A stretch of 38,726 nt of DNA from Thermodesulfobacteriota bacterium (GCA_040757775.1 JBFLWQ010000027.1:1-38726); one strand, 5' to 3'. Numbered from the stretch's first letter, positions 25,237 through 38,453 are shown. Program-made: numbers and translations. Notes: generated by a model not told the origin, from the sequence alone.

Positions 25237-27528
25237 CTATTTTCTCATGATGGTTACTTCTTCGCTGGGCTCACTTTCAAGACCGTCCTTATCAACAGAG
25301 ATAACGACATATGCCTTTTCCTTCCCCTTCGGAAGACTTTCCCCGGTAAAACCTGGTATTTTAACGGTGGCAATCTTTGCGAGTCCTAAAAACCGTTTTT
25401 CGTAAATATCATAATGTGAAATGTCAGGTTCGCTCCCAGGGTTCCAGTTGAGTACGACCTTTCCCTTAGTCAGGTTGCCGTTAAGTCCCTCAGGACGTTT
25501 CGGTTTAGGTTTAGTCTGAACACTGATGGTTTCCGAAAAATCACTTAGCAGTGCATCCCTGTCTTCTGCCTGGATACGGTAACGATAACCACAGCCATCT
25601 TTGAGACCCTTATCAATGTATGCGGTTTCACTACGAATATCCGCAATGCGGGTAAATTCTTCCTTCTCAGGACCAGCGCGCCAGACATGATAAACGACGA
25701 TATCGTTTTCTGGATTTGATAGCCAGGCAAGAGGCACCTCCTTTACTTTCCCTTCTTCTCCTTTAAGTCCTGATGGTTTCGTCGGTCTAGCCTTTGTCGT
25801 GGCAAAGGCTGTTTCAGAAAAATCACTCTCCACATCCACCTTGTTGAAGGATCTGATTATGTAATAATAAGTGGTGTTATCATCGAGCTTTTCTTCCCCT
25901 CCCCCGTCGTGGGTAAACTTATTAGTCGTCCGTCCCTTTAATCTTGAGAGCAACATATATTTACCTACCTTTTCTCTGGACCAGTAGATCTTGTAACCCT
26001 CAATGTCTTCATTGGAACTCGCCGTCCACGTAAGTTCCACCTTTTTTACCATGCCACTTACAGCTTTTACCCCCTCCGGAGCAGGTGGTTTACCCTTTGT
26101 TACGGCTGATACCGCCACTGATGGTGACGTTTCCCTATCCTCATCCTCAAAAGCAGTAATTCTATAGTAATAGGAAAGATTATCGCCAAGTTCTTCCCTA
26201 TCATTATACTCCATCTTCTCCCTGGTACCGGTACCTGAAATGTTAGAAACCTCAACTTTCTTAATCTTGGTAAAATTTCCGGTTTCTCCAGTGCTTCGAT
26301 AGATGTAGTATCCCTTGACGAAAGGAGAATCAACAGGAACCCACGTCAGTTTAGCTTCCCTTATCATTCCGTGGGCGGAGACACCACTGACAACCGATGT
26401 GGTTGTAGCCTTAACAGAGCTGGAAAATTCACTTTCCAAACTCTTTTCATTATATGCCGTCAGTTTATAGTAATAGCCTTCCCCATCGCCGAGTCCCCGA
26501 TCTACACGGACCACCTTAAGCAACTTGTCGAGAGTAGTTGTGACATTTACACCAATACCCAGATCCCGGCCGAGGATATTGACCACCTCTTTGTATGGAC
26601 CATCTTCTGCTTTTGCCCGATAGAGTTTATACCCCTTCAATTCCAGGGGATCATCGCTCTTTGCTGGATTGGGGGACCATGTCAACTCAACACTCTTTAT
26701 GTGGCCTATTGCCTTTAAAATAACAGGGGGGTTAGGAACAGGGACTGTCTCAGCACGAATAACTGATGAAAAATTACTGCGAAGCCCACTACTAGCAGAT
26801 GCCCTGACCTGATAATAATAAGTGGTATTCTTCTCTAAATTCCGATCAAGATACTCTGGTTGTGCTACCTGAGAAATCCAGGCAAAAGGACCGGATTCGG
26901 AAGTACTGCGAAACACCTCATAACTGACGGCAGTGTTACCGGGTGCATTTTCCCAGCTCAAATATATGCTCCTGCTACCCGATCGTTTCTGTATATTAGT
27001 GGGGCCTCCCCAAGTAGGCGTAGGCTTTTCTTCACTCACTTTTTTGGTATAGGCATCTGCTATTGCTTTGCTGATCAAGGTACTCAGCCTTTTGATTTCA
27101 CCCCCCAGAGCTGTATCACCGAAGGATACCAACTGGGTATCAAAAATAGACGTCTTCTGTTTGATATGAATAGCCTTACAGTTGACCACAATTGTAGCTC
27201 CCTTTTTTTCAACGTTGCCGACAACTATGACGTCAACCCCCAGTTGTGTACCGATATTAACCACATTTGCCGGATTATCATCCTGCTGGAGATCATGGAG
27301 GTTCAAAAAAGCCTCAAGCTCCCTACGGCCAATCATGATCAGTTCACCTTTCTCTTTAAGGGAATCTATAAGCAGATTGGTAACCGAGGTACCATAACCC
27401 GAAGCCTCCATATTTACAGTTCTGAAGTTAAAAACAGCAATCTTGGCCTGCAGGGGAGTATCGGCTAAGACAATGACTGGATAAAATATCAGTATCATCA
27501 AAAAAATCAAGCACCACTTTTTGCCCAT
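25237..27528 (-). CDS. Exported CsgG-like protein with six fibronectin type III domains
   Basis: The 763-residue protein has a signal peptide (1-22). An N-terminal domain (about 27-170) has CsgG/TolB-N-like features: KIAVFNF, an IGRRELEAFL helix, and VDVIVVGNV. Six fibronectin type III domains follow from about 175 to the end. Each shows a V/LxLxW strand, a GY..YR/YW strand and a YYY-type tyrosine corner. FN3 arrays usually mediate binding at the cell surface or in the periplasm. The ATG at 27528 has GGAGGAGAGA upstream and is preferred to an ATG 12 nt earlier. It lies 45 bp after the TPR-CsgG lipoprotein gene and is probably cotranscribed. The exact role is unknown. Confidence 0.88.
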   Translation of the reverse strand: MGKKWCLIFLMILIFYPVIVLADTPLQAKIAVFNFRTVNMEASGYGTSVTNLLIDSLKEKGELIMIGRRELEAFLNLHDLQQDDNPANVVNIGTQLGVDVIVVGNVEKKGATIVVNCKAIHIKQKTSIFDTQLVSFGDTALGGEIKRLSTLISKAIADAYTKKVSEEKPTPTWGGPTNIQKRSGSRSIYLSWENAPGNTAVSYEVFRSTSESGPFAWISQVAQPEYLDRNLEKNTTYYYQVRASASSGLRSNFSSVIRAETVPVPNPPVILKAIGHIKSVELTWSPNPAKSDDPLELKGYKLYRAKAEDGPYKEVVNILGRDLGIGVNVTTTLDKLLKVVRVDRGLGDGEGYYYKLTAYNEKSLESEFSSSVKATTTSVVSGVSAHGMIREAKLTWVPVDSPFVKGYYIYRSTGETGNFTKIKKVEVSNISGTGTREKMEYNDREELGDNLSYYYRITAFEDEDRETSPSVAVSAVTKGKPPAPEGVKAVSGMVKKVELTWTASSNEDIEGYKIYWSREKVGKYMLLSRLKGRTTNKFTHDGGGEEKLDDNTTYYYIIRSFNKVDVESDFSETAFATTKARPTKPSGLKGEEGKVKEVPLAWLSNPENDIVVYHVWRAGPEKEEFTRIADIRSETAYIDKGLKDGCGYRYRIQAEDRDALLSDFSETISVQTKPKPKRPEGLNGNLTKGKVVLNWNPGSEPDISHYDIYEKRFLGLAKIATVKIPGFTGESLPKGKEKAYVVISVDKDGLESEPSEEVTIMRK

Positions 27529-27573
27529 TCTCTCCTCCATCCTAAATCTACTGGATAATTATTAGTTAATTAT

Positions 27574-29562
27574 TTAATCATTTTGAACAAGTTCGACAAT
27601 CATGTCCATGGACTTCTGGGAAATCGGAGTGGATATGCCCTTTAATTTTTCATCAAAAATGGCATCTGTAAATCTTTCAATGGAAAGTTCCGGATTCCGT
27701 CGTTTCTGGTATTGCTGACCCTGGTTAAAGTACTCAACCTCAAGGCTCTGAAAATTCTTGAGGATAGTCTGCCCCATCACCGACACCTTCTCGTTGGTTA
27801 ATTCATCCATTACCTCTACCTCTGTCGGAAGCTCTAACGGGTCATAGGGGATACCGGCAGCCGGTACGGCATCCTGGTATTTATCCTCCTTAAACATCTT
27901 TCCCGAGATTGTATTGGTAAAAATGTTCTCTCCTGTAAGGGTATCCACAAGCTTATAGGAGACCTCTATTATGGAGCTGATTTTTGTTGTTCCCTGCCTG
28001 TAGGAAATGAATTGATAAATCTTCTTCTTAATCGTAGGAGGAGGAGCGGACTTAAGCTGTTCTGGGGTTGGCCTTGGATTTGCCATGCTCCATAATAAGA
28101 ATTGCTGATTGGGTTCATCTGTTTCGTCAACAAGGGCTTTAACCTGACTGATACTTGGGGTATCAGTTTTCGTAGCCGCGAAGTGGAGAACATCACCCAT
28201 AATAAATGTATCAATCCCTCTCATCTTTGCGGTTTGTGCCGCCTTGATGTCAACGAGACCGGTTTGTCCGAGCTGCATTTCCCTTAAAATAGACTGCAGA
28301 TTTTCACGCTCGATGATACGCAGATCACCACTGGCGTTCCTGTGTAGGTAAGCAATCAGTTTGTTTGCCGCTATTTTACCTGCATCTCTATCGTTACTGG
28401 GACTGCTAAAATCAAAAACGGCGATGGACTTTCTAATACGCTTGTTAATCTGGTCTTTAACCTCGAGGGTCCTTTGAAACAGCCCCGGGTAATTACGATT
28501 CAATGCCTCAGCTCTCTGCAGCCAGACCAAGCTATTGCCCCACATCTCACGCCCGGAAAATTTTTCTGCCCTCTCCATCAGCTTTGCACAAAAGTTGTTA
28601 ACAAATTCTCTATAAATAGGACTGTCTAATAGAGAAGGTGAAGATGCAGCGGCAAGTTCTAATCTTTTGAATGCCTTATAAAACTTGCTCTGACTGACCA
28701 ATCTGGTAGCTTCCTGAAAATATATCTGCCCCACATGTATTTTAATGTCCTCCAGCTTTTTCACAATATCACGATTGTCAGGCTGGTATTTGCTTGCCTT
28801 TTCGAGTAGCCGAATAGCCCTTTCCCAGTCCTGTCCCTGCCTTGCTTTTTCACCTTCACTAACGTAATAATCAACATTATCCCTTGACATAGCATCCTTA
28901 TGCAGTTTGGCCACATCCAGGTAATTAGGATTAATATCCATAGCAGACTTAAAAGCCTGGACCGCCAACCCCCATTCTTCCTGTTTACTGAAGGCTAAAC
29001 CTCGCTGATATAACATCCTTGTCCCTTCTTGCTCCGCTTTGAGGAGTCTATTGTCTGCATTTTCATAGCTGGCAGAAATCTTAACTATCTGTCTTAATTT
29101 TACCACGGCAGCCATCCAATCTTCCTTTTGCATGTCCAATTCTGCCTGGCTGGACAACGACTTAAGATTATTCATAAGGGTACCGATCTTTCCTCTGATA
29201 TCACTGTCTAAAGCCTTAATAGTGCTGTTTCCAGGATCCAGGTTATAGGCAAGACCAGCTTCCTTCGCTACCTGCTCGAGCACAGAGAGGTTCCCCTCAG
29301 GAGCAGAAGCAAGTATCTGTTTTGCCTTCTCATAACGGACCTTAGCCGCCTCCCGCTTTGTCCGGTTCAGTGCATCTATGTACTCCTGCTTGTTGGGATC
29401 CTCCTTCACTGCCTGCTCAAAAAAAGGAATTGCTTCTTCCCAGCGGTTCGCCTGAATCAACTCCTGTCCTGTTTTGTAACTCTCGGTTACGGCACAGGCA
29501 GAAACAAGAACCAGGATAAATAAAGCGATTAGAATCATCGGATAATTTCTTGGCTTAATCAT
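27574..29562 (-). CDS. Lipoprotein with TPR-like repeats and a CsgG-like domain
   Basis: The 662-residue lipoprotein has lipobox LVSAC with C23. From about 30 to 370 it carries helical repeats of TPR type, with motifs such as ANRWEEAIPFFEQAVKEDPN and EEWGLAVQAFKSAMDINPN. From about 385 on, a CsgG-like domain shows IAVFDFSSPS, ERENLQSILREMQLGQTG and IDTFIMGDV. The ERxxLQxIL...LGQxG pattern is shared with the separate CsgG gene of this cluster. AGGGAGG precedes the ATG. A TPR part anchored to a pore-family domain suggests a scaffold or assembly factor at the outer membrane. This is inferred. Confidence 0.9.
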   Translation of the reverse strand: MIKPRNYPMILIALFILVLVSACAVTESYKTGQELIQANRWEEAIPFFEQAVKEDPNKQEYIDALNRTKREAAKVRYEKAKQILASAPEGNLSVLEQVAKEAGLAYNLDPGNSTIKALDSDIRGKIGTLMNNLKSLSSQAELDMQKEDWMAAVVKLRQIVKISASYENADNRLLKAEQEGTRMLYQRGLAFSKQEEWGLAVQAFKSAMDINPNYLDVAKLHKDAMSRDNVDYYVSEGEKARQGQDWERAIRLLEKASKYQPDNRDIVKKLEDIKIHVGQIYFQEATRLVSQSKFYKAFKRLELAAASSPSLLDSPIYREFVNNFCAKLMERAEKFSGREMWGNSLVWLQRAEALNRNYPGLFQRTLEVKDQINKRIRKSIAVFDFSSPSNDRDAGKIAANKLIAYLHRNASGDLRIIERENLQSILREMQLGQTGLVDIKAAQTAKMRGIDTFIMGDVLHFAATKTDTPSISQVKALVDETDEPNQQFLLWSMANPRPTPEQLKSAPPPTIKKKIYQFISYRQGTTKISSIIEVSYKLVDTLTGENIFTNTISGKMFKEDKYQDAVPAAGIPYDPLELPTEVEVMDELTNEKVSVMGQTILKNFQSLEVEYFNQGQQYQKRRNPELSIERFTDAIFDEKLKGISTPISQKSMDMIVELVQND

Positions 29563-29655: not shown

Positions 29656-30771
29656 TCAATGTAAGAGCATCGCTTCAATCTGGTTTTGGGTTATCTTTAC
29701 TATCTTAACTTTCCCGCCATTTACGTTAATTGCCGCAATATCATCGGCTAAGCCCTGAGTGTTTCCCTTAATTTCTAAATCCAGGTCAACCCTTCCCTGA
29801 ACATAAGAACGCTGGTACATCTCTTTGAACCCCTTCACTGCCATCGACAGAAGATTCTTGAACCGCATTAAATCCTCGTAGGAATCAATGCCTGACACTA
29901 ATAGTTTGACTGTAACTGTATTTGTTAGCTCAGAAGACCAGCGATCCAGTGTCTCTTCCATCATTTTCTTTGCCAGTTTTACAACTACTTCTTCCGTTAT
30001 CAGTTTAAAATCCCCCTTCATACCTGGTGCCGATTTGCTTTCACTATCCGTCGAGATTATCTCTCCCGTATCACCATTCATGACCTTAACAGAAACAGTA
30101 ACCTTGTTTGAGCTCACTTCAACACCAGCCACTGTAAAGGAGTTAACTGCGGCATCAACACTGCCGATAATCACGACCTCTGCACCGAACTGATGGCTCA
30201 TCTCAGCCAGCATCTTCTGATCCCCGGTAAGGGTTTGGAGATGTTCGTACTTCCTGTTCTTTCTGACAACCTCAGCATCAACGAGTTTAAATCCCTTAGA
30301 CATAAAATATCTGGCCATTGCCGCTTCAGCAATTGCATCCTTTTGGGCTTGCCCACCGAAAATAATCATCAGGCGTGGTTTGGACTTTTTCATCATAATA
30401 AGATTGATAGCTTCCATGCGATCCTTCAGCTTTCCCTTCCCAACATCGGCTTCAATAGTGACCCTGTACATATCGCCTTCTCTCTTTTCCGAGGTAACCC
30501 TGTAAGTATTGATAAAACCTCTGGATTCAGAAAGAATCTGGTCGAGTTTTAATTGGAAATTCTCGACTTCTGTACTACTCGTAATCATAACGCCCACAAC
30601 TCTTTCTACTGCACTACGCTGGGCATTGTCAATAGCCTTGTCTCTGGCGATATCCACTAAATTACTATGAATGGCTGCCATACCTTCTGCGAGAATCTTC
30701 TCCTGAGCAGGGGCAGTGCCGTACATAAACCCCAAACCAATTAAAATAATAAAAAAAACTGTTTTCTTCAT
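29656..30771 (-). CDS. FlgT-like exported protein, copy A
   Basis: The protein has 371 residues from the chosen start, with a signal peptide (1-22). A FlgT N-terminal-like domain (about 27-115) shows ARDKAIDNAQRSAVERVVG, VENFQ and YRVTIEADV. A central CsgG/TolB-N-like domain has KPRLMIIF and AEVVIIGSVDA. A third conserved part contains GIDSYEDLMRFKNLL and LEIKGNTQGLADDI. In vibrios, FlgT builds the H-ring of the flagellar motor, but no flagellar gene is present here. The ATG at 30771 has GGAGA 5 nt upstream. ATGs at 30783 and 30837 are in frame. A sigma-70-type promoter and a run of nine G on the sense strand lie just upstream. It is a paralogue of the gene at 35.1-36.3 kb. Confidence 0.85.
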   Translation of the reverse strand: MKKTVFFIILIGLGFMYGTAPAQEKILAEGMAAIHSNLVDIARDKAIDNAQRSAVERVVGVMITSSTEVENFQLKLDQILSESRGFINTYRVTSEKREGDMYRVTIEADVGKGKLKDRMEAINLIMMKKSKPRLMIIFGGQAQKDAIAEAAMARYFMSKGFKLVDAEVVRKNRKYEHLQTLTGDQKMLAEMSHQFGAEVVIIGSVDAAVNSFTVAGVEVSSNKVTVSVKVMNGDTGEIISTDSESKSAPGMKGDFKLITEEVVVKLAKKMMEETLDRWSSELTNTVTVKLLVSGIDSYEDLMRFKNLLSMAVKGFKEMYQRSYVQGRVDLDLEIKGNTQGLADDIAAINVNGGKVKIVKITQNQIEAMLLH

Positions 30772-30845
30772 TACTGTCTCCATAGGGTTTTCCCCCCATT
30801 TTAGAAGGATTCTGGTGCCCGCAACCTCAATATGCATTAGGATAT

Positions 30846-30854
30846 CCCCCCCCC
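30846..30854 (-). repeat. Nine-base G tract in the leader of the FlgT-like gene
   Basis: Nine consecutive C on the + strand (G in the transcript) lie between the proposed promoter and the start of the FlgT-like gene. Homopolymer G tracts of this length can change length by slippage. Confidence 0.8.
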
Positions 30855-30878
30855 AAGTATACGGTTAGATTAGTAGGA

Positions 30879-30907
30879 ATTTTAGATTATGTATGGTATA
30901 AAGTCAA
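30879..30907 (-). promoter_or_regulatory. Sigma-70-type promoter for the FlgT-like / TPR-CsgG / FN3 unit
   Basis: On the - strand TTGACT and TAAAAT are separated by exactly 17 bp. It lies just past the stop of the nucleotidyltransferase gene and reads towards the FlgT-like gene, giving a start near 30872. Confidence 0.65.
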
Positions 30908-30923
30908 ATAAATTGTAACTAAC

Positions 30924-31928
30924 TCAGGGGTTTGTTGACGAATTAGGGTGCACCGCCTTAGCATTATTTAGCATAGCTGTTATTTCTCGATATTCTGCAT
31001 CAGTGCCATCATAATCATAAGTTGCATCTTCGCCTATCATGGGTATAATTGTAAATCTGCCCTGAAAAAACTGTGAAGTGATGTTTTCGCATTCTTTTAT
31101 ACTCAGATCCCTTCTAATGAAGTATTTTGTATATACATTTGAATATCCCAGGTTATGAGTGATCCTGAATAATTCCATCTGAACTTTTGGATTGAGCGAT
31201 TTGCGAAGACTATATGCGGTATTTATGTTATTCACATTTATAAGGTTTGGGTTTGCAAATACTAGAGAAGAAAACCTGAACCCCTGCCTGCCGTATTCAT
31301 CTTTTATATTAGAGACTTGATAAGTTGTGTCATTAATAAGATTGAGAGGTCTTCTGCCAAGCTTATCCTGATTTTCCCCAATAAATACAGCAGGAAATAT
31401 TGCAGCGGAATGATGCTGGTAATCTTGCGCGATATGGAGAAAGTATTCGATAAACTCCTTTGTAGTTAGCGGCGAATCGGAGGCAACAAATAATGCATGC
31501 TTTTTGTGATTGTAAGCAGCACTGGCAGCGTATCCTTTGATTATGTTTCCTGCAAAAGAATTATGCTTGACCTTTTTAGGTGTTACCCTAAAACGCTTAA
31601 TTGCATGATGAGGAATTTTAGAATTCTGGTTTTCAATTCGGAACGGTTTGGCGAATTTCCCGAGAAATTTACCAAGCCGTTGCTCAAGAAGCATCTTATG
31701 TCCTACAATGACTATCTCATCAATTAAGTCACTGTCAAAAAGCTTTTCAAGTATGAACTGAATCACAGGTTTGTTTATTTCATGCCCATCCTGAACAATC
31801 TTAAATTCCCTTAAAGGTTTGTATCCTGCCTCTATGAACTTTTCACCGTAATGTTCTGCAACTATTCTGCTATACTTTTTTACTGTCCGCTTGTTGTTGT
31901 ATCCGGCCATTAATATGGCACTAACCAT
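30924..31928 (-). CDS. Nucleotidyltransferase (MobA-like NTP transferase fold)
   Basis: The 334-residue protein begins MVSAILMAGYNNKR, a form of the nucleotide-binding L-x-A-G loop of NTP transferases. It has EIVIVGHKMLLEQRLG and LFVASDSPLTTKEFIEYF, which resembles the metal-binding aspartate strand of this fold. There is no signal peptide, so the enzyme is cytosolic. Substrates could be a sugar phosphate or a cofactor and cannot be told from sequence. The long-form loop lacks the GGxGxR of sugar nucleotidyltransferases, so the chemistry is uncertain. AAGGTGA precedes the ATG. It is the only non-exported protein in the - strand envelope region and is flanked by gaps with their own signals, so it may be an unrelated insertion. 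Confidence 0.75.
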   Translation of the reverse strand: MVSAILMAGYNNKRTVKKYSRIVAEHYGEKFIEAGYKPLREFKIVQDGHEINKPVIQFILEKLFDSDLIDEIVIVGHKMLLEQRLGKFLGKFAKPFRIENQNSKIPHHAIKRFRVTPKKVKHNSFAGNIIKGYAASAAYNHKKHALFVASDSPLTTKEFIEYFLHIAQDYQHHSAAIFPAVFIGENQDKLGRRPLNLINDTTYQVSNIKDEYGRQGFRFSSLVFANPNLINVNNINTAYSLRKSLNPKVQMELFRITHNLGYSNVYTKYFIRRDLSIKECENITSQFFQGRFTIIPMIGEDATYDYDGTDAEYREITAMLNNAKAVHPNSSTNP

Positions 31929-32033
31929 TTTATCACCTTATTAGGTAAGAGATAGTAGAGGGGCTTGCAGATAAACAACGATTGTATTTCAAACAGCATG
32001 CCCATTATATGGCGAGTGAGGGATAGGGTATTG

Positions 32034-32048
32034 TTTATCGACGATAAA
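32034..32048. promoter_or_regulatory. Perfect 15-bp palindrome, possible operator
   Basis: TTTATCGACGATAAA has perfect 7-bp arms around a single central base. Another ACGATAA lies 7 nt after it. It is located between the nucleotidyltransferase and FecR-domain genes. The regulator is unknown. Confidence 0.4.
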
Positions 32049-32076
32049 GGCAACGATAAGATATTGGAGTGTTAAG

Positions 32077-32832
32077 TTATTTTGTCAATTCGTCTCTCTT
32101 TTTATTCCAGAGAACCCAATCACTTATATCTTCTTCTCGCGAGAAAGAGACAGGTTTCAAGGCTTTACCCTCAGGGGTAATCACGATCTGTTGCATTTCT
32201 TTTACTATGTGTTCCCACTCCTTCAAGGTAACTTCACGAGGTCCGCGAACCTCTTTTGGCCCCGGGACTTCCTTGGGTGCACCTATTTCAAATACAGGTT
32301 TAGGAATCTCTTTTGGCGGACTTGTCACATATACATTCCCACCGTAAACTCTAATCAACACGGATTTATCTTTGCTAACGTCCATTCTATAGATAGTACC
32401 CTTAACCCCTGCTACAGCATTTTCACTGGAAATCTCAAATCTTTTTCCTTTTCCTAGAAATCCTTTAGCATTAGCCCAGGTTCTGCCCAGAAACAGTTTA
32501 ACACTGAAATTTTTATCTCCGCTTTCCCTGTCATAACCCAGGTCACTAACCGTAAAGCTTGTATTATCTGCGAATCGAACAAAGCTTCCATCCGGCAGTT
32601 TTATCTCTATTAAGGTTTTTTCACCTGTATTTATCCTATCCTCTTTATGGAGGAGATTATGCACCTTCAATGGGGTCCCTTTTGCTTCCCCTTTTGGCAA
32701 AACATATGCCTTCCCCTGGAGGAAGGTAACAACAGCCTGGTCTTTAGGGGATTTTACCTCTTTAGAAAAGGAAACGGCGGCAAGAAAAAAAGTTAGTCCT
32801 ATTAAACAGATTGCAGATTTACATATTTTCAT
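32077..32832 (-). CDS. Exported FecR-domain protein
   Basis: The 251-residue protein has a signal peptide (about 1-23) and then a FecR-type beta domain from about 33 to 170. Its typical motifs are EDRINTGEKTLIEIKLPDGSF, WANAKG, ENAVAGVKGTIYRMDV and GGNVYV. A Pro/Lys/Glu-rich linker with PKEVPGPKEVRGP repeats leads to a charged C-terminus. FecR domains without a membrane anti-sigma part are common in exported structural or signal proteins, and no anti-sigma N-terminus is present here. It lies 36 bp after the PEGA lipoprotein gene, so the two are likely cotranscribed. The precise role is unknown. Confidence 0.88.
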   Translation of the reverse strand: MKICKSAICLIGLTFFLAAVSFSKEVKSPKDQAVVTFLQGKAYVLPKGEAKGTPLKVHNLLHKEDRINTGEKTLIEIKLPDGSFVRFADNTSFTVSDLGYDRESGDKNFSVKLFLGRTWANAKGFLGKGKRFEISSENAVAGVKGTIYRMDVSKDKSVLIRVYGGNVYVTSPPKEIPKPVFEIGAPKEVPGPKEVRGPREVTLKEWEHIVKEMQQIVITPEGKALKPVSFSREEDISDWVLWNKKRDELTK

Positions 32833-32868
32833 AGGCGATCTCTCTTAGAGTAGTTTCATTTATGTTTA

Positions 32869-33192
32869 TTATCTATTCAATTTTTTTAATGTTACCTCTA
32901 TTGTTTGAAGCGACTTACTGGAATAAACATCCCGGCTATAGGGAGCATAACCCTCTTTTTTTATCTCTATCTTGTGGGTTCCACTGCTTAGCTTTATATA
33001 GCCAGGGTTGCCATCATATCTGTTTGCCTCTCCCATGGAAGCTCCGTCTACAAAAACCTCTGCATCACTGGGATTACAGACGACCCTTATTGCTCCTTCA
33101 TTGCCTACACCTATAGTGGCTTCCTTCGGAGTACCACACCCCATCAGGATAATAATGAAAAGCAGAGAAAACAGTATAGTATTCTTCATCAT
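32869..33192 (-). CDS. PEGA-domain lipoprotein
   Basis: This small lipoprotein (107 residues) has lipobox ILMGC with C19. A single PEGA domain (about 33-105) shows IRVVCNPSDAEVFVDG, LSSGTHKIEIKKEGYAPYSRDV and a final VTLKKL strand. PEGA domains are found in many envelope and S-layer-associated proteins and are thought to bind other proteins or glycans. GAGGAG lies before the double ATG, and the first of the pair is used. An ATG 15 nt upstream is unlikely. It sits between the CsgG gene and the FecR gene. Confidence 0.87.
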   Translation of the reverse strand: MMKNTILFSLLFIIILMGCGTPKEATIGVGNEGAIRVVCNPSDAEVFVDGASMGEANRYDGNPGYIKLSSGTHKIEIKKEGYAPYSRDVYSSKSLQTIEVTLKKLNR

Positions 33193-33289
33193 AAACTCCT
33201 CGTTCATAGTAATTGTAAATACTAAACCCTAAACTTAGTGTCGGTGTCAGGAATCAGTGTCGATATAAGGGTACAAAGCCTCGCTTGCA

Positions 33290-34231
33290 TCACTGCACCT
33301 TAAGTTTAACCACATCATTGACAGTTAATCCTGTGCCTGATTTAATAGTAGCCTTGGTTAGATTGGCATCAACGTAACCTGTAACAAGCAATTCAGCCTT
33401 TAACGGGCCTTCTTCCCTGCCCAATAAGACATGGGTCTGGGGGTCATATATCTCTTCGCCAAGCGAGTAAACCATCAGGATATTTCCTATCTCTAGTCCC
33501 ACATCCTTGCCTGCATTTATATATACGGTTGAGCCACTCACCTTAGCAATCCTTCCGCTCCACTCTGTTGATTGTAACTGCTGGATAAGATTGTCCATAA
33601 ATTTAGTAATGGCAGCCCTTAATGCATTTTGTCCCATGGTTTCATCATAACCGCCGCGCTGTCCAAACCCCAATATCTCGGATATCTTCTTTTCGAAAAC
33701 ACCAGAGCCAGAGTCAGCAAAGAGTACCTGCCCTGTAGTGGTATCCACTACCCTGACATCCACAGTACACTCCGCCTTCTGTATCTTCTGTTTGTAAACT
33801 CCGTAATCCTTTCCCTCTGTCTTGACACCAAATTGAGATATAGAGCCTGTTACGATAGCATTAAGCCCCAGTATCTTACCTGCTTCAGCAGCCGTAGCAG
33901 GATTAATTACACCTGATTGACCTAAAGCCTGTTCTCCAAGGATTTTCTGTAATTGAGCACGTTCAACCACAATAAATGCCCCTGTTTTAAAGAGTTCGGT
34001 TGTCAGGATATCAGATGCTGAAGACCCTAATCTTCCTTTACCATAAGTTGTCTTGTTCTCAAAATCCACTATTCCTACTCTCTTCTTGGGTCCTTTGGAG
34101 ACAATCTTGGGTGCTTCTTTTTCAACTGCCTTTTCCGAAGGAGCAGCTTTTGTTACCGTTGGTATGCCGGCACAGACGAGAGTAAACAAAAATGATATAA
34201 TAAGACCTGCCCTCATTTTCTTGCTTAACAT
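33290..34231 (-). CDS. CsgG/HfaB family outer-membrane secretion or anchoring protein
   Basis: The 313-residue protein has a signal peptide (about 1-29). The CsgG fold follows: KRVGIVDFENKTTYGKGRLG, ERAQLQKILGEQALGQSGVINP, LGLNAIVTGSISQFG and DVRVVDTTTGQVLFADS. The C-terminal part (about 225-313) looks like an added beta domain (GRIAKVSGSTVYINAGKDVGLEIGN). CsgG forms the curli secretion pore, while HfaB anchors the holdfast. The cysteine at 20 is not in a good lipobox, so anchoring by lipid is doubtful. No CsgA/B-type substrate is seen in the window. AGGAGG precedes the ATG. Confidence 0.92.
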   Translation of the reverse strand: MLSKKMRAGLIISFLFTLVCAGIPTVTKAAPSEKAVEKEAPKIVSKGPKKRVGIVDFENKTTYGKGRLGSSASDILTTELFKTGAFIVVERAQLQKILGEQALGQSGVINPATAAEAGKILGLNAIVTGSISQFGVKTEGKDYGVYKQKIQKAECTVDVRVVDTTTGQVLFADSGSGVFEKKISEILGFGQRGGYDETMGQNALRAAITKFMDNLIQQLQSTEWSGRIAKVSGSTVYINAGKDVGLEIGNILMVYSLGEEIYDPQTHVLLGREEGPLKAELLVTGYVDANLTKATIKSGTGLTVNDVVKLKVQ

Positions 34232-34293
34232 TAGTTAATCCTCCTGTTAATTTAACTTGATAATTCCCTGTAGCTTGCTATAGGGTTTCAATA

Positions 34294-34383
34294 GTCATTC
34301 CTGCGAAAGCAAGAATCCAGAAAACTAAAAGACTAGATTCTGTGCCCGCCCCGTACTCGATACGGGGTCAAGCACAGAATGAC
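34294..34383. repeat. Palindromic repeat with GTCATTC/GAATGAC ends
   Basis: A 90-bp element is bounded by GTCATTC and GAATGAC. Inside are ATTCTGTGC/GCACAGAAT with an inner CCCCGTA/TACGGGG, and AGAATCCAG/CTAGATTCT. The latter overlaps the former, so two mutually exclusive hairpins are possible. It is a REP/MITE-like element of a type widespread in environmental proteobacteria. Confidence 0.65.
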
Positions 34384-34425
34384 AGAATACAGAATGGCGA
34401 AAATTTATAATATTTTGTAAAGACA

Positions 34426-35058
34426 TTAAGGGGTTAAACAACCACCCTTTGCAGGTGGAATATACTTGGGCCCAGGGGGTAATGTAGATAATGCCGTATT
34501 GATTACAGTCTGGACATAGGGATCATATCTCTTTAAGGCAGCAAAACCCACATTCTCTATTAAGGAGTCCCTATCCAACCCAAATTTCCTTTCAGCAACC
34601 ATATGCTCCGATTCCCAGAGTTGTTCCCCTGTTTTGGTATCTATGAGTTGAAATTTAGCCCCCACTTTAACTGAGGCATAGACCACCAGGTAAGTAGTAC
34701 TCCACTCTGTTACTGTACCATATAGCACTGCATCAACATTGAGGAGCTTTCCTATTTCCTGGGGGGTCATGGAATTAAGCTGACCTGCGTCCCTTATATC
34801 CTTTTCAGCAAGTTTTGAATCAATTTCAGTAATAGGAGGGGATACGTAACCTTTATAGGAAATAATATTAAAGAGCTTTGGCCTGAATAGCTGGGGTGCA
34901 TCCATGTCTACGGTTTCATTTTGGACGGGGACTACAGCAACTGATGTTGGAGTCTTGGATTTATAGTCAGGAACTAAGGTATGAGGGATCCCAGGTATAC
35001 AACCACTGGAGATAAGGATAAGCGTAACCCCGATAAGGATAAGTTTTAAATGTTTCAT
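34426..35058 (-). CDS. GNA1162/DUF799-type lipoprotein
   Basis: The 210-residue lipoprotein has lipobox ISSGC with C20. The sequence PTSVAVVPVQNETVDMDAPQLFRP, then LNSMTPQEIGKLLNVDAVLYGTVTEW, fits the GNA1162/DUF799 family, first described as a meningococcal surface antigen. That family has a TolB-N-like fold and is often encoded next to a CsgG gene. Here CsgG is the next gene downstream, which supports the assignment. The C-terminus ends in a Pro/Gly-rich segment with a cysteine. The SD sequence AAGGAGA lies before the ATG. A role in an outer-membrane complex together with CsgG is inferred. Confidence 0.87.
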   Translation of the reverse strand: MKHLKLILIGVTLILISSGCIPGIPHTLVPDYKSKTPTSVAVVPVQNETVDMDAPQLFRPKLFNIISYKGYVSPPITEIDSKLAEKDIRDAGQLNSMTPQEIGKLLNVDAVLYGTVTEWSTTYLVVYASVKVGAKFQLIDTKTGEQLWESEHMVAERKFGLDRDSLIENVGFAALKRYDPYVQTVINTALSTLPPGPKYIPPAKGGCLTP

Positions 35059-35080
35059 GTATATCTCCTTTCAACAGAGA

Positions 35081-36277
35081 CTATCGATTTTTAGGTAGAA
35101 TGGTCAGGTCAAGAGAATTCTGGGAAAGAGAGTTTATATTAATTGAAAAATTCTGGAAGTTCTTAGTTGTCAATTCATCAGCAAGAGACTGGGAGTCGCC
35201 CTTTATATCTATGTCGATCTTGGCTACCCCAGCGTTTATACTCCGCTGATAGACTCCTTTAACACCACGAACCTGTTCTTGCAATACGTTCTTGAATTTC
35301 ATAAAATCGTGATAGCTGGAGATTCCGTTTATAGTCAGCTGAACCATAGTAGTTCCACTAATCTCTTTGCCCCATGTAGTTATGATCTGATCTATGAGTT
35401 TAGAAGCCAAATCAGATGCTGCCTTTTTGAGGGCATTAGATCCCCCTGTAACCTCATCTATGTGAACTGCTGCCCCATGAGTGTTTGCAGACGCAATGAT
35501 TGCTCCGTTATCAGTACGGATAGCCCGTGCCGACATATTCGCCTGGGCTGATTTCATAGAGGTGCCCATGACACTTCCTACAAGTTTTGCCAATGCCTTG
35601 CCAACTATTACCACCTCAGCATCGTACTGATTACCAAGAGAGACAGCCGTATTATCATCCAGATTTGCTACCTTGTATGGTTTCCCTATCTTTATATCCC
35701 TGGCCTTGGCTGCATGGTCAACAACATTAAAATCCTTCTCCCTGAATTTTTCAACCAGGACGCTCTCGGTAATCGATAGGTTTGTTTCAGATGCCTGATG
35801 CCCCCACCAGAAGCTGAGGTATTGTTGACCGATATTCTGCTCAGCAATCAGGACCATGACCCTGGGTTTATGCTTTCTTGCCATCAAAAGACCTATGGCA
35901 GCCAGGTCATTCTTCAGGTTCCCCAGAGTCACTGTTGCCTCTAAAGTAACCTTATAGATATTTTCTGCCGGGGCTTCTGATATAATTTTGTATTGCTGTA
36001 CATATCCTTCAGTTTTAGTATAAATACGGTCGCTTAGAAGTTGAAAGTTTTCAACCATGGTCTCTGAGGAGACAAGAGTCCCCACAGCTTGTTCTACCGC
36101 TTTTCTAAGGGCATCTTCGATAGCGTTATCCCTGGCTATAGCCTTGTCATTATTTACAATTGCTCCTACCCCCTCAGCCTTGATAACCTGTGATTGAAGA
36201 AGTTGCTCTCCATGGGCATAATGGGCTGAAACAAGGATTGTTAAAAAGCAGAGTAGTACCTTACTTAATGTTTTCAA
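35081..36277 (-). CDS. FlgT-like exported protein, copy B
   Basis: The 398-residue protein starts at TTG with AAGGAGGG 6 nt upstream. It begins with a clean signal peptide (1-23). An upstream in-frame start would add about 20 residues and hide the signal. The FlgT N-terminal-like domain shows ARDNAIEDALRKAVEQAVG, VENFQ and YKVTLEATV. The middle part has KPRVMVLIAEQ and AEVVIVGKA. The end has GISSYHDFMKFKNVL, VYQRS and DIKGDSQSLADEL. It is clearly a paralogue of the gene at 29.7-30.8 kb, with the same domain order. It is 22 bp upstream of the GNA1162-like gene, so the two are cotranscribed. Confidence 0.88.
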   Translation of the reverse strand: MKTLSKVLLCFLTILVSAHYAHGEQLLQSQVIKAEGVGAIVNNDKAIARDNAIEDALRKAVEQAVGTLVSSETMVENFQLLSDRIYTKTEGYVQQYKIISEAPAENIYKVTLEATVTLGNLKNDLAAIGLLMARKHKPRVMVLIAEQNIGQQYLSFWWGHQASETNLSITESVLVEKFREKDFNVVDHAAKARDIKIGKPYKVANLDDNTAVSLGNQYDAEVVIVGKALAKLVGSVMGTSMKSAQANMSARAIRTDNGAIIASANTHGAAVHIDEVTGGSNALKKAASDLASKLIDQIITTWGKEISGTTMVQLTINGISSYHDFMKFKNVLQEQVRGVKGVYQRSINAGVAKIDIDIKGDSQSLADELTTKNFQNFSININSLSQNSLDLTILPKNR

Positions 36278-36331
36278 GATATTCCCTCCTTGTATAATAT
36301 GGGAACGAGAGCTTTGGAAATCCATACAAAC

Positions 36332-36369
36332 TGTCACTTATAAGATTTCTCCTTCCAGTCGAAATGACA
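36332..36369. repeat. Short degenerate palindromic repeat
   Basis: TGTCA and TGACA bound a 38-bp segment, with GATTTCTCC and GTCGAAATGACA inside. It resembles a worn copy of the common genomic GTCAT...ATGAC repeat class. It is weak evidence alone. Confidence 0.25.
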
Positions 36370-36406
36370 AAGTGCGTATTTTTCAAGGTCTTGGAACATA
36401 TCTTTT

Positions 36407-37582
36407 CTAGAAGAACCTTAATTCATCCTTGAGTTTCCTTATAATCAGCAGAGCATCAGCCCCGGAAACTGGCTTCATTGGGGCAAATTCGCCAGTAGTC
36501 AAATCTACTGCCTCCATAATCCCTCTGGTAGTTGCGACCATTACTGCATTAAAGTAGGGAAGATCGCTCCTCAAATCGGGGAAGGGAGATTTGTTGCCAA
36601 TGTATTTTGTGGCAAGCTTATCGTCTCCAGTAACCTTTATTAGAATGTCTTCAACCATTATAGCATAAGATGCCCTGGTTATAACATCATCGGGACGATA
36701 GGTATGGTCGGGATAAGGTTCCAATCCTTTTACCCCAATATTTAAAACCGTTTGAATATCTGTCCTTAATACATGATTAGAGATGTCTGTAGCAGCTTCA
36801 GTCTTTTCAATACGATCGGCTTCAAAGGCTTTTGACGGGGCTTTATAACTGGTATCGAATTTTTTAGGAGATCGTTTTTCATAGAGCTTTTCTAATTTCA
36901 GTTCCTGAACGAACAATGCAGCAATATCTGCCCTGGTTATCTTCTCTATCAGGGCTATCTTTTTACCTATCATGCTTCCAGGTGCGGCCCTCTGAATCTT
37001 TTGAACCAGCTTCCACTGATTGTCTGCTTCAATCAGATATTTATCATTTATATCCAGGACTTTCTTAAACATTTCTCCTGATTTATCGAAATTATAAGAC
37101 AGTTTATATGCTTCGCCCATATAGTAATGAGCGGCTGACGATTTAGGGTCTATATCAATCGCATCTTTAAAGGTACTCTCCACTTCATCAATCCAGCCGT
37201 CTTTTCTTTCCATGGAGTAAATTCTCATCAGGCCAACCCGGGCGTTGACCTTATCATCATTCGTTTTGGCGAGTTCCCGCCCTTTCTTGGCATTATCAAA
37301 TGCCTCTTTAAAGTTTCCTTTATAACCATTTACTAAGCCAATGCCTGTATAAGCAGAAGAGAATTTTGGGTCTAACTGGATAGCCAGGTTAAATTCACGT
37401 ATAGCGTCATCATAATTTTCTTTCTCCAGAAGCTTCATTCCACTAAATACATGGTGTTCTGGAGTATCAAGGGCGCTTACCGCTTTCCTGGCCTGGGGGG
37501 CACATGCACCAATAAAAAGCAGGGAGAATATTAAAATAGACGGAAAAATCCAGTTTATGGGCTGTATTGTTTTTATCTTCAT
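36407..37582 (-). CDS. Lipoprotein with TPR repeats and C-terminal SLH domains
   Basis: The 391-residue lipoprotein has lipobox FIGAC with C27. TPR repeats span about 45-195 (ENYDDAIREFNLAIQLDPKFSSAYTGIG and IDPKSSAAHYYMGEAYKLS among them). From about 275 to the end, two SLH-type units are seen (VKGLEPYPDHTYRPDDVITRA and SPFPDLRSDLPYFNAVMVA, then TTGEFAPMKPVSGADAL). SLH domains usually bind cell-wall polymers. With a lipid anchor at one end, such a protein could bridge the outer membrane and the wall while its TPR part holds partner proteins. It lies 46 bp after the LPP20-like gene, likely in one operon. Confidence 0.9.
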   Translation of the reverse strand: MKIKTIQPINWIFPSILIFSLLFIGACAPQARKAVSALDTPEHHVFSGMKLLEKENYDDAIREFNLAIQLDPKFSSAYTGIGLVNGYKGNFKEAFDNAKKGRELAKTNDDKVNARVGLMRIYSMERKDGWIDEVESTFKDAIDIDPKSSAAHYYMGEAYKLSYNFDKSGEMFKKVLDINDKYLIEADNQWKLVQKIQRAAPGSMIGKKIALIEKITRADIAALFVQELKLEKLYEKRSPKKFDTSYKAPSKAFEADRIEKTEAATDISNHVLRTDIQTVLNIGVKGLEPYPDHTYRPDDVITRASYAIMVEDILIKVTGDDKLATKYIGNKSPFPDLRSDLPYFNAVMVATTRGIMEAVDLTTGEFAPMKPVSGADALLIIRKLKDELRFF

Positions 37583-37628
37583 CTTTCGCCTCCGACTGAT
37601 TAGTTATTAAATAATTTAGGTTTGGTAT

Positions 37629-38453
37629 TCAATCGACAACAAACAACACCCGACATTGAGATAAAAAGCTGAGGTTTTTAGAGGTATCTCTCAGGATGTT
37701 TGCATCAGAATTTTTGATAACCACGTTACTGTTCCCCCGCCCTTCAGTTTTTATCCCTTTGATTATAATAGGGTTGTTTGTTACTCGGTCATTTTGTCTG
37801 GCTGTTCCTATGTCTTTCATATAGCCCACTATTCCCTGCTCGATGGCGAACTCTTTAGACACATAGGCAGAACCGTAAACTTCTTTTCCATCTTCATCAA
37901 TAACCTTTGGGGACATAGCAGGACGAAGCTCTAAACCTTTTGTATCAATAATCAGTCCGGTATATACTGGACTGCCGGTAGAGGGTACCCTATGTCCACC
38001 CATAGGAGGCAATAGAGCTTCAGCAAAGGAACCAGTAATGGGAACTTCTATAACAACCTCCACGCCACCGTCGGAAAAATACTTTTTGTCAACTACCCTA
38101 GCTCCCCGAACAAAGCCTTCAACCTTAGCCTGTATTACGTCACTTTGAGTCATGGCATTTACCACCGTGGTTTCTGAATCGATTCTTACACCCTTAACGG
38201 TTTCAAGAAGGTTTCTTAAGGCATCTACCTTGGCAGCCCTTTCTGCCCCCAACCTTGCAACTGCTATGTTGGGTGCAGACGGATTCGGAGCTCCACTTCC
38301 GGTGGCCCTTATTACATTCTGAGTCCAGTTAACCTCACCCTGACCCATAGTTTCAATAACTTGATCTGTACTACCTCCAAACACTCCCCAAGAAGTAAAG
38401 AAGATGAGTAGAAAAGATAATGATACGCTCACCATGATTGCCTTTATTTTCAT
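37629..38453 (-). CDS. LPP20-like exported protein
   Basis: The 274-residue protein has a signal peptide (about 1-26, ending GVFG). The LPP20-type region (about 62-150) shows ARLGAERAAKVDALRNLLETVKG, DVIQAKVEGFVRGARVV and GGVEVVIEVPI. There is no lipobox, unlike LPP20 and FlgP proteins. The second half is a beta-type region (YTGLIIDTKGLELRPAMSPKV) with a conserved look but unknown function. It is the first gene of the - strand envelope series and has a good promoter about 100 bp upstream. Homologous FlgP proteins in vibrios form an outer-membrane disc with FlgT. Here the setting is non-flagellar. Confidence 0.85.
   Translation of the reverse strand: MKIKAIMVSVSLSFLLIFFTSWGVFGGSTDQVIETMGQGEVNWTQNVIRATGSGAPNPSAPNIAVARLGAERAAKVDALRNLLETVKGVRIDSETTVVNAMTQSDVIQAKVEGFVRGARVVDKKYFSDGGVEVVIEVPITGSFAEALLPPMGGHRVPSTGSPVYTGLIIDTKGLELRPAMSPKVIDEDGKEVYGSAYVSKEFAIEQGIVGYMKDIGTARQNDRVTNNPIIIKGIKTEGRGNSNVVIKNSDANILRDTSKNLSFLSQCRVLFVVD

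Follow-up and report, generated by a model that had tools for sequence, protein, structure and literature searches.

A conserved operon of FlgT_N, LPP20 and CsgG-like genes in Thermodesulfobacteriota probably specifies a non-flagellar ring or scaffold of the cell envelope

A stretch of 38,726 nucleotides from a Thermodesulfobacteriota bacterium (GCA_040757775.1, JBFLWQ010000027.1:1-38726; hereafter, the window) contains an operon in which two FlgT_N proteins, FlgT-A (35081..36337) and FlgT-B (29656..30837), are encoded together with an LPP20-domain periplasmic protein of 274 aa (37629..38453), a CsgG-family protein (33290..34231) and several lipoproteins. All genes lie on the minus strand, separated by 22-194 bases, and a promoter-like TTGACA-16-TAGAAT sequence, which is a consensus match only, precedes the LPP20 gene. 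A periplasmic ring or scaffold that is anchored in the outer membrane and does not belong to a flagellum is, by a modest margin, the probable product of these genes. In Vibrio, FlgT and the LPP20-family FlgP form rings round the flagellar motor. A preliminary description of this DNA had reported two FlgT-type paralogues and an LPP20-type protein with CsgG and lipoproteins, not flagellar genes, as neighbours. Pfam and lipoprotein motifs bear this out: the FlgT_N (E 3.3e-11 in FlgT-A, 3.8e-9 in FlgT-B) and LPP20 (E 7.2e-7) calls exceed the curated Pfam cut-offs, and Pfam searches of the window proteins found no flagellar genes. Chance domain matches can be ruled out, given that the matches lie over the cut-offs, that 50 of 51 FlgT-A relatives contain FlgT_N and that FlgT is the top fold match.

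Comparison with relatives divides the operon into two modules. Module A comprises, in order, genes for the LPP20 protein, a TPR/SLH lipoprotein, FlgT-A, a GNA1162 lipoprotein, the CsgG-like protein, a PEGA protein and a FecR protein, and module B those for FlgT-B, a TPR/CsgG protein and an Fn3/CsgG protein. Several families have module A without module B, and in G073 (locus L058) module B lies apart from module A, headed by FlgT-B there too. Scanning named genomes with a FlgT-A profile yielded 78 loci, many of them on contigs that end early, in metagenome-assembled genomes labelled Deltaproteobacteria/Thermodesulfobacteriota, Nitrospinota, Nitrospirota, Myxococcota and, in one case, Zixiibacteriota. 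Clustering of the neighbours recovered FlgT in 75 of these loci, GNA1162 in 50, CsgG in 49, LPP20 in 47, TPR/SLH in 37, FecR in 24 and PEGA in 12, the dominant orders being LPP20-TPR/SLH-FlgT-GNA1162-CsgG-PEGA-FecR and FlgT-GNA1162-CsgG-TPR/SLH-LPP20. A literature search found no paper on this operon.

Those of the other recurrent neighbours that were examined by sequence were housekeeping genes, except for MlaE, MlaF and MlaD. The operon could be read as an outer-membrane lipid homeostasis complex working with MCE/Mla lipid transport, since in one set of loci it continues directly into an outer-membrane-barrel-like gene and MlaE-MlaF-MlaD (in L124, Pfam MlaE 1.6e-63 and MlaD 4.6e-15). However, this arrangement is limited to around nine loci, and in the lineage of the window itself no Mla genes adjoin the operon, making this explanation improbable. 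The barrel-like gene follows module A in L093, L096, L106, L108, L110, L115, L117, L121, L122 and L124, with an MlaE-type gene in 9/10 of them and MlaF/MlaD in several.

The host genome (3.1 Mb in 50 contigs, 100% complete) yielded neither FlhA nor rod/hook proteins (Flg_bb_rod) in a genome-wide search, as had been expected from the preliminary description, while the E. coli control was positive for both. Among members of the same genus, G001, G002 and G004 carry FlhA and G000 does not, and module A is intact in flagellated and non-flagellated members alike; because FlhA varies in this way, possession of the operon does not depend on the flagellum, even at the level of a single genus. In the flagellated G004, modules A and B are contiguous and 87-94% identical to those in the window, and FlhA lies on the same contig some 80 kb away.

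This independence extends to the phylum. Across 296 of its genomes, which are related, so that the p values are indicative only, FlgT-like genes at E<=1e-60 were found in 24 FlhA-positive and 22 FlhA-negative genomes and were lacking in 163 and 87, respectively (odds ratio 0.58, p 0.10). With the threshold set to E<=1e-100, the carriers numbered 10 and 15 (p 0.016). FlhA was likewise present in 24 of 50 carriers among the named genomes, and neither sample showed a positive association of FlgT-like genes with FlhA. The variable presence of FlhA in the genus might suggest that the operon is a leftover of a lost flagellum. We rejected this reading, which we regard as barely credible: many FlhA-negative genomes have kept the operon intact, a retention across non-flagellated families that largely refutes it, and in the flagellated G004 the operon lies far from flagellar genes. 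Together, the host's lack of a flagellum, the conservation of the operon in several phyla and the failure of FlgT-like genes to occur preferentially with FlhA give good support to the earlier suggestion that these proteins serve another machine. Previous surveys by BLAST detected no FlgP, FlgQ, FlgO, PflA or PflB in delta-proteobacteria (PMC5758724), and linked FlgO, FlgP and FlgT to sodium-driven gammaproteobacterial motors (PMC6375700).

In its AlphaFold2 (AF2) model (predicted local distance difference test, pLDDT, 77), FlgT-A consists of an SHS2 domain, corresponding to FlgT_N (residues 1-98, with an insert at 43-67), a middle domain of CsgG/LpoB fold and a C-terminal alpha/beta domain. 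The top Foldseek matches were FlgT as chain 0 of the LPHT ring (8z5n_0, 4.5e-11) and FlgT in 3w1e (3.6e-10), followed by CsgG, GNA1162, PelC and LptE, so the best matches of the predicted fold are ring or outer-membrane-assembly proteins. The global template modelling (TM) score is only 0.3, indicating that the domain arrangement differs or is uncertain. FlgT-A also matches, over its full length, the NCBIfam model NF033164 for LipL46 (E 9.8e-23; FlgT-B, E 1.5e-11), a surface-exposed outer-membrane lipoprotein of Leptospira (PMC2698987). However, FlgT-A has no lipobox and its 80.5 bits fall under the equivalog cut-off of 400.

The LPP20 protein comprises an SHS2 domain and a C-terminal domain like D2 of Treponema pallidum Tp0624. 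A profile search of the PDB retrieved the C. jejuni scaffold 9hmf (2e-17), Tp0624 (5jir, 2.2e-17) and FlgP (8z5n, 1.5e-11), and the AF2 model (pLDDT 92.8) was matched by Foldseek to Tp0624 (5jir, TM 0.78) and then to Lpp20 and 9hmf. The latter is a periplasmic scaffold of C. jejuni (PMC12222027), whose 171-residue "lipoprotein" chain we infer to be FlgP. Tp0624 is the best full-length match, its D1-D2 tandem being covered over the whole length of the LPP20 protein, but the chain stops after D2 and Pfam detected no counterpart of the OmpA-like, peptidoglycan-binding domain of Tp0624. LipL46 and Tp0624 are thus full-length relatives that are not known as flagellar parts. The first 40 residues of the LPP20 protein in the window contain no cysteine, so that this protein, in contrast to FlgP, is no lipoprotein.

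As a flagellar reference we used Aeromonas plasmid records (L142 and L143), aligning operon proteins by hhalign against those of L143, identified by Pfam. FlgT-A matched the N-domain of Aeromonas FlgT (E 1.1e-8), and the LPP20 protein, which has the FlgP-type SHS2 domain with its ring insert, matched FlgP (E 3.5e-11). The CsgG-like protein aligned with residues 196-382 of FlgT (E 1.7e-5, probability 78%), which is moderate evidence, as only one sequence represented Aeromonas. In line with this, Pfam found FlgT_C in 12 and FlgT_M in 7 of 31 relatives of the CsgG-like protein. The term FlgT-type therefore holds for the FlgT_N domain of FlgT-A and FlgT-B and not for the rest, because the FlgT_M/FlgT_C-like sequence sits in the neighbouring CsgG-family gene; no single chain combines the N, M and C domains. 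A counterpart of FlgO in the operon found no support, as neither Pfam on the window proteins nor hhalign against Aeromonas FlgO gave a match, and the FlgO Pfam model touched only 14 of the 51 FlgT-A relatives, weakly. Judged by domain content, the operon is a split, domain-by-domain counterpart of the Vibrio H-ring, with the LPP20 protein corresponding to FlgP, FlgT_N to FlgT-N and the CsgG-like protein to FlgT-M plus FlgT-C, all encoded together. It differs from the Vibrio/Aeromonas H-ring in its host without a flagellum, the separate gene for FlgT-M/C, an LPP20 protein that is no lipoprotein and the additional lipoproteins. In the Aeromonas plasmids, FlgP-FlgO and a divergent FlgT occur with no other flagellar genes beside them, and in plasmid pE31A the conjugation gene traN is only a few kb distant from the H-ring genes.

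In FlgP, a hairpin inserted between the helix and strand 2 of the SHS2 domain builds the ring, and in the SHS2 family ring formation accompanies an insertion at this place, FlgT being cited as a case (PMC12222027). In our alignment, an insert of the same length, 26 residues, is present in all 49 FlgT-A, all three FlgT-B and 33 of 35 LPP20 sequences, as well as in flagellar FlgT and FlgP. A FastTree phylogeny of SHS2 domains placed flagellar FlgT with the FlgT_N proteins and FlgP with LPP20 (39 tips, support 0.995; 0.54 for the FlgT_N side), indicating that FlgT and FlgP were already distinct from each other before flagellar and non-flagellar copies parted. This tree is unrooted and based on a domain of about 90 residues with few flagellar sequences, two FlgP rows being fragments copied from the LPP20 profile-search alignments. 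It does not resolve the direction of recruitment and neither favours nor contradicts the earlier proposal that the ancestral use was not flagellar. It is conceivable, though doubtful, that a stand-alone outer-membrane ring machine was the source of, or sister to, FlgP and FlgT of the flagellar H-ring and basal disk, the accessory ring having been recruited from a pre-existing envelope complex. A conserved operon with these ring-forming parts outside flagella provides a concrete comparison set for the question of how high-torque flagella came by their extra rings.

In the ring or scaffold that we favour, the GNA1162-like, TPR/SLH and PEGA lipoproteins would be seated in the outer membrane, and FlgT-A, FlgT-B and the LPP20 protein would oligomerise via the SHS2 domain with its 26-residue insert. 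Additional layers of the ring might be stacked from the CsgG-fold domains present in FlgT-A, the GNA1162-like lipoprotein and the CsgG-like protein, and attachment to peptidoglycan or a partner could be provided by the FlgT_C/TsaP-like and SLH domains at the C-termini. Candidate partners are a type IV pilus secretin, MCE lipid transport and a substrate of CsgG-type secretion. Several points weigh against such an assembly: the ring itself has not been observed; the gene content of the operon points to no partner machine; the domains are widespread in other contexts, as with FlgT_N and DUF4384; and the insert is modelled as helices, not as a beta-hairpin, in the LPP20 monomer and with low confidence in FlgT-A. 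The ring predicted by this reading would be an undescribed envelope structure, visible by cryo-tomography, in several largely uncultured phyla.

The CsgG-like protein (CsgG E 2.9e-34) bears on two of these partners. TsaP forms a ring around PilQ, and whereas approximately the first half of the CsgG-like family matches CsgG in PDB profile searches, its C-terminal part matches TsaP chains (6ve2, 6.3e-7; 3jc8, 2.8e-5). The complex could thus be a collar round the type IV pilus secretin PilQ, in which the CsgG-like protein replaces TsaP and the FlgT and LPP20 proteins add rings. As read from its sequence, the own genome encodes a single secretin, in a PilMNOPQ-type locus, and its three LysM proteins do not resemble TsaP; additionally, a prepilin-like gene lies immediately upstream of FlgT in L117, L122, L124 and L126, in most cases preceded by a small membrane protein gene. 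Nevertheless, most neighbourhoods have no visible pil genes, the TsaP match is limited to one small domain, joined here to a CsgG domain, and Pfam detected no LysM domain in the CsgG-like protein or the operon, so we consider a PilQ collar unlikely.

Alternatively, the CsgG-like protein might be an outer-membrane pore that exports a surface protein, with the other products as a periplasmic vestibule, as its family assignment and CsgG match would allow. Against this, the PDB match to CsgG is confined to roughly the first half, the protein having an extra C-terminal domain, and the window copy has no canonical lipobox and, by inspection, a lysine-rich equivalent of the first membrane hairpin; we hold CsgG-type secretion to be rather unlikely. 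A curli system was rejected, because the host genome contains no curlin repeats, a lack that also counts against the secretion reading; CsgE and CsgF had no match among the window proteins, a genome-wide search for them not having been made.

The remaining products of module A are a TPR-repeat lipoprotein with a C-terminal SLH domain (36407..37582, TPR_2 2e-10, SLH 9e-7, motif LLFIGAC by eye), the GNA1162-like lipoprotein (34426..35058, PF05643 E 2e-21, PDB 4hrv E 3.6e-23, motif ISSGC by eye), a PEGA-domain lipoprotein (32869..33207, PEGA 2.5e-9) and a FecR-domain periplasmic protein (32077..32832, FecR 6.4e-12), which is also matched by the Leptospira Lsa33/LipL45 models. Between both modules lies a gene for a MobA-like nucleotidyltransferase (30924..31928, NTP_transf_3 0.0017, under the Pfam cut-off), which is kept throughout the genus. 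Module B encodes, after FlgT-B, a lipoprotein that combines TPR repeats with a CsgG-like domain (27574..29562, CsgG 2.2e-8, motif VSAC by eye) and a protein with a weakly CsgG-like N-terminus (0.0065, under cut-off) and fibronectin III repeats (25237..27540, fn3 8.8e-20). The TPR N-terminal part of the former matches the model of the Myxococcus outer-membrane-exchange lipoprotein TraC (E 1.2e-11, far under cut-off), probably through TPR similarity. The rest of the window contains housekeeping genes: two-component systems, rho, a peptide release factor, prmC, an EPSP-synthase-family gene, ccm genes and a P-type ATPase.

FlgT_N also occurs outside the operon, with DUF4384 in G001 and alone next to dapA; such settings, and relatives such as LipL46, caution against taking the names FlgT and LPP20 as signs of a flagellar part. 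FlgT_N is combined with DUF4384 (Pfam) downstream of a caspase-like frame in L053:9647-10498, and a protein of this type was recognised by sequence similarity in the own genome (contig C21, L147:5590-6444). The stand-alone protein, of 257 aa, is found in the flagellated genus members G002 and G004 (L035:3295-4068 and L037:722-1495). Its assignment to a flagellar rod/ring cluster was rejected, since its neighbours by Pfam are dapA, a TsaD-family gene and an M50 protease. A third FlgT_N-like gene of the own genome (contig C16, L052:9766-10731) carries a weak 3-keto-disaccharide hydrolase-like domain.

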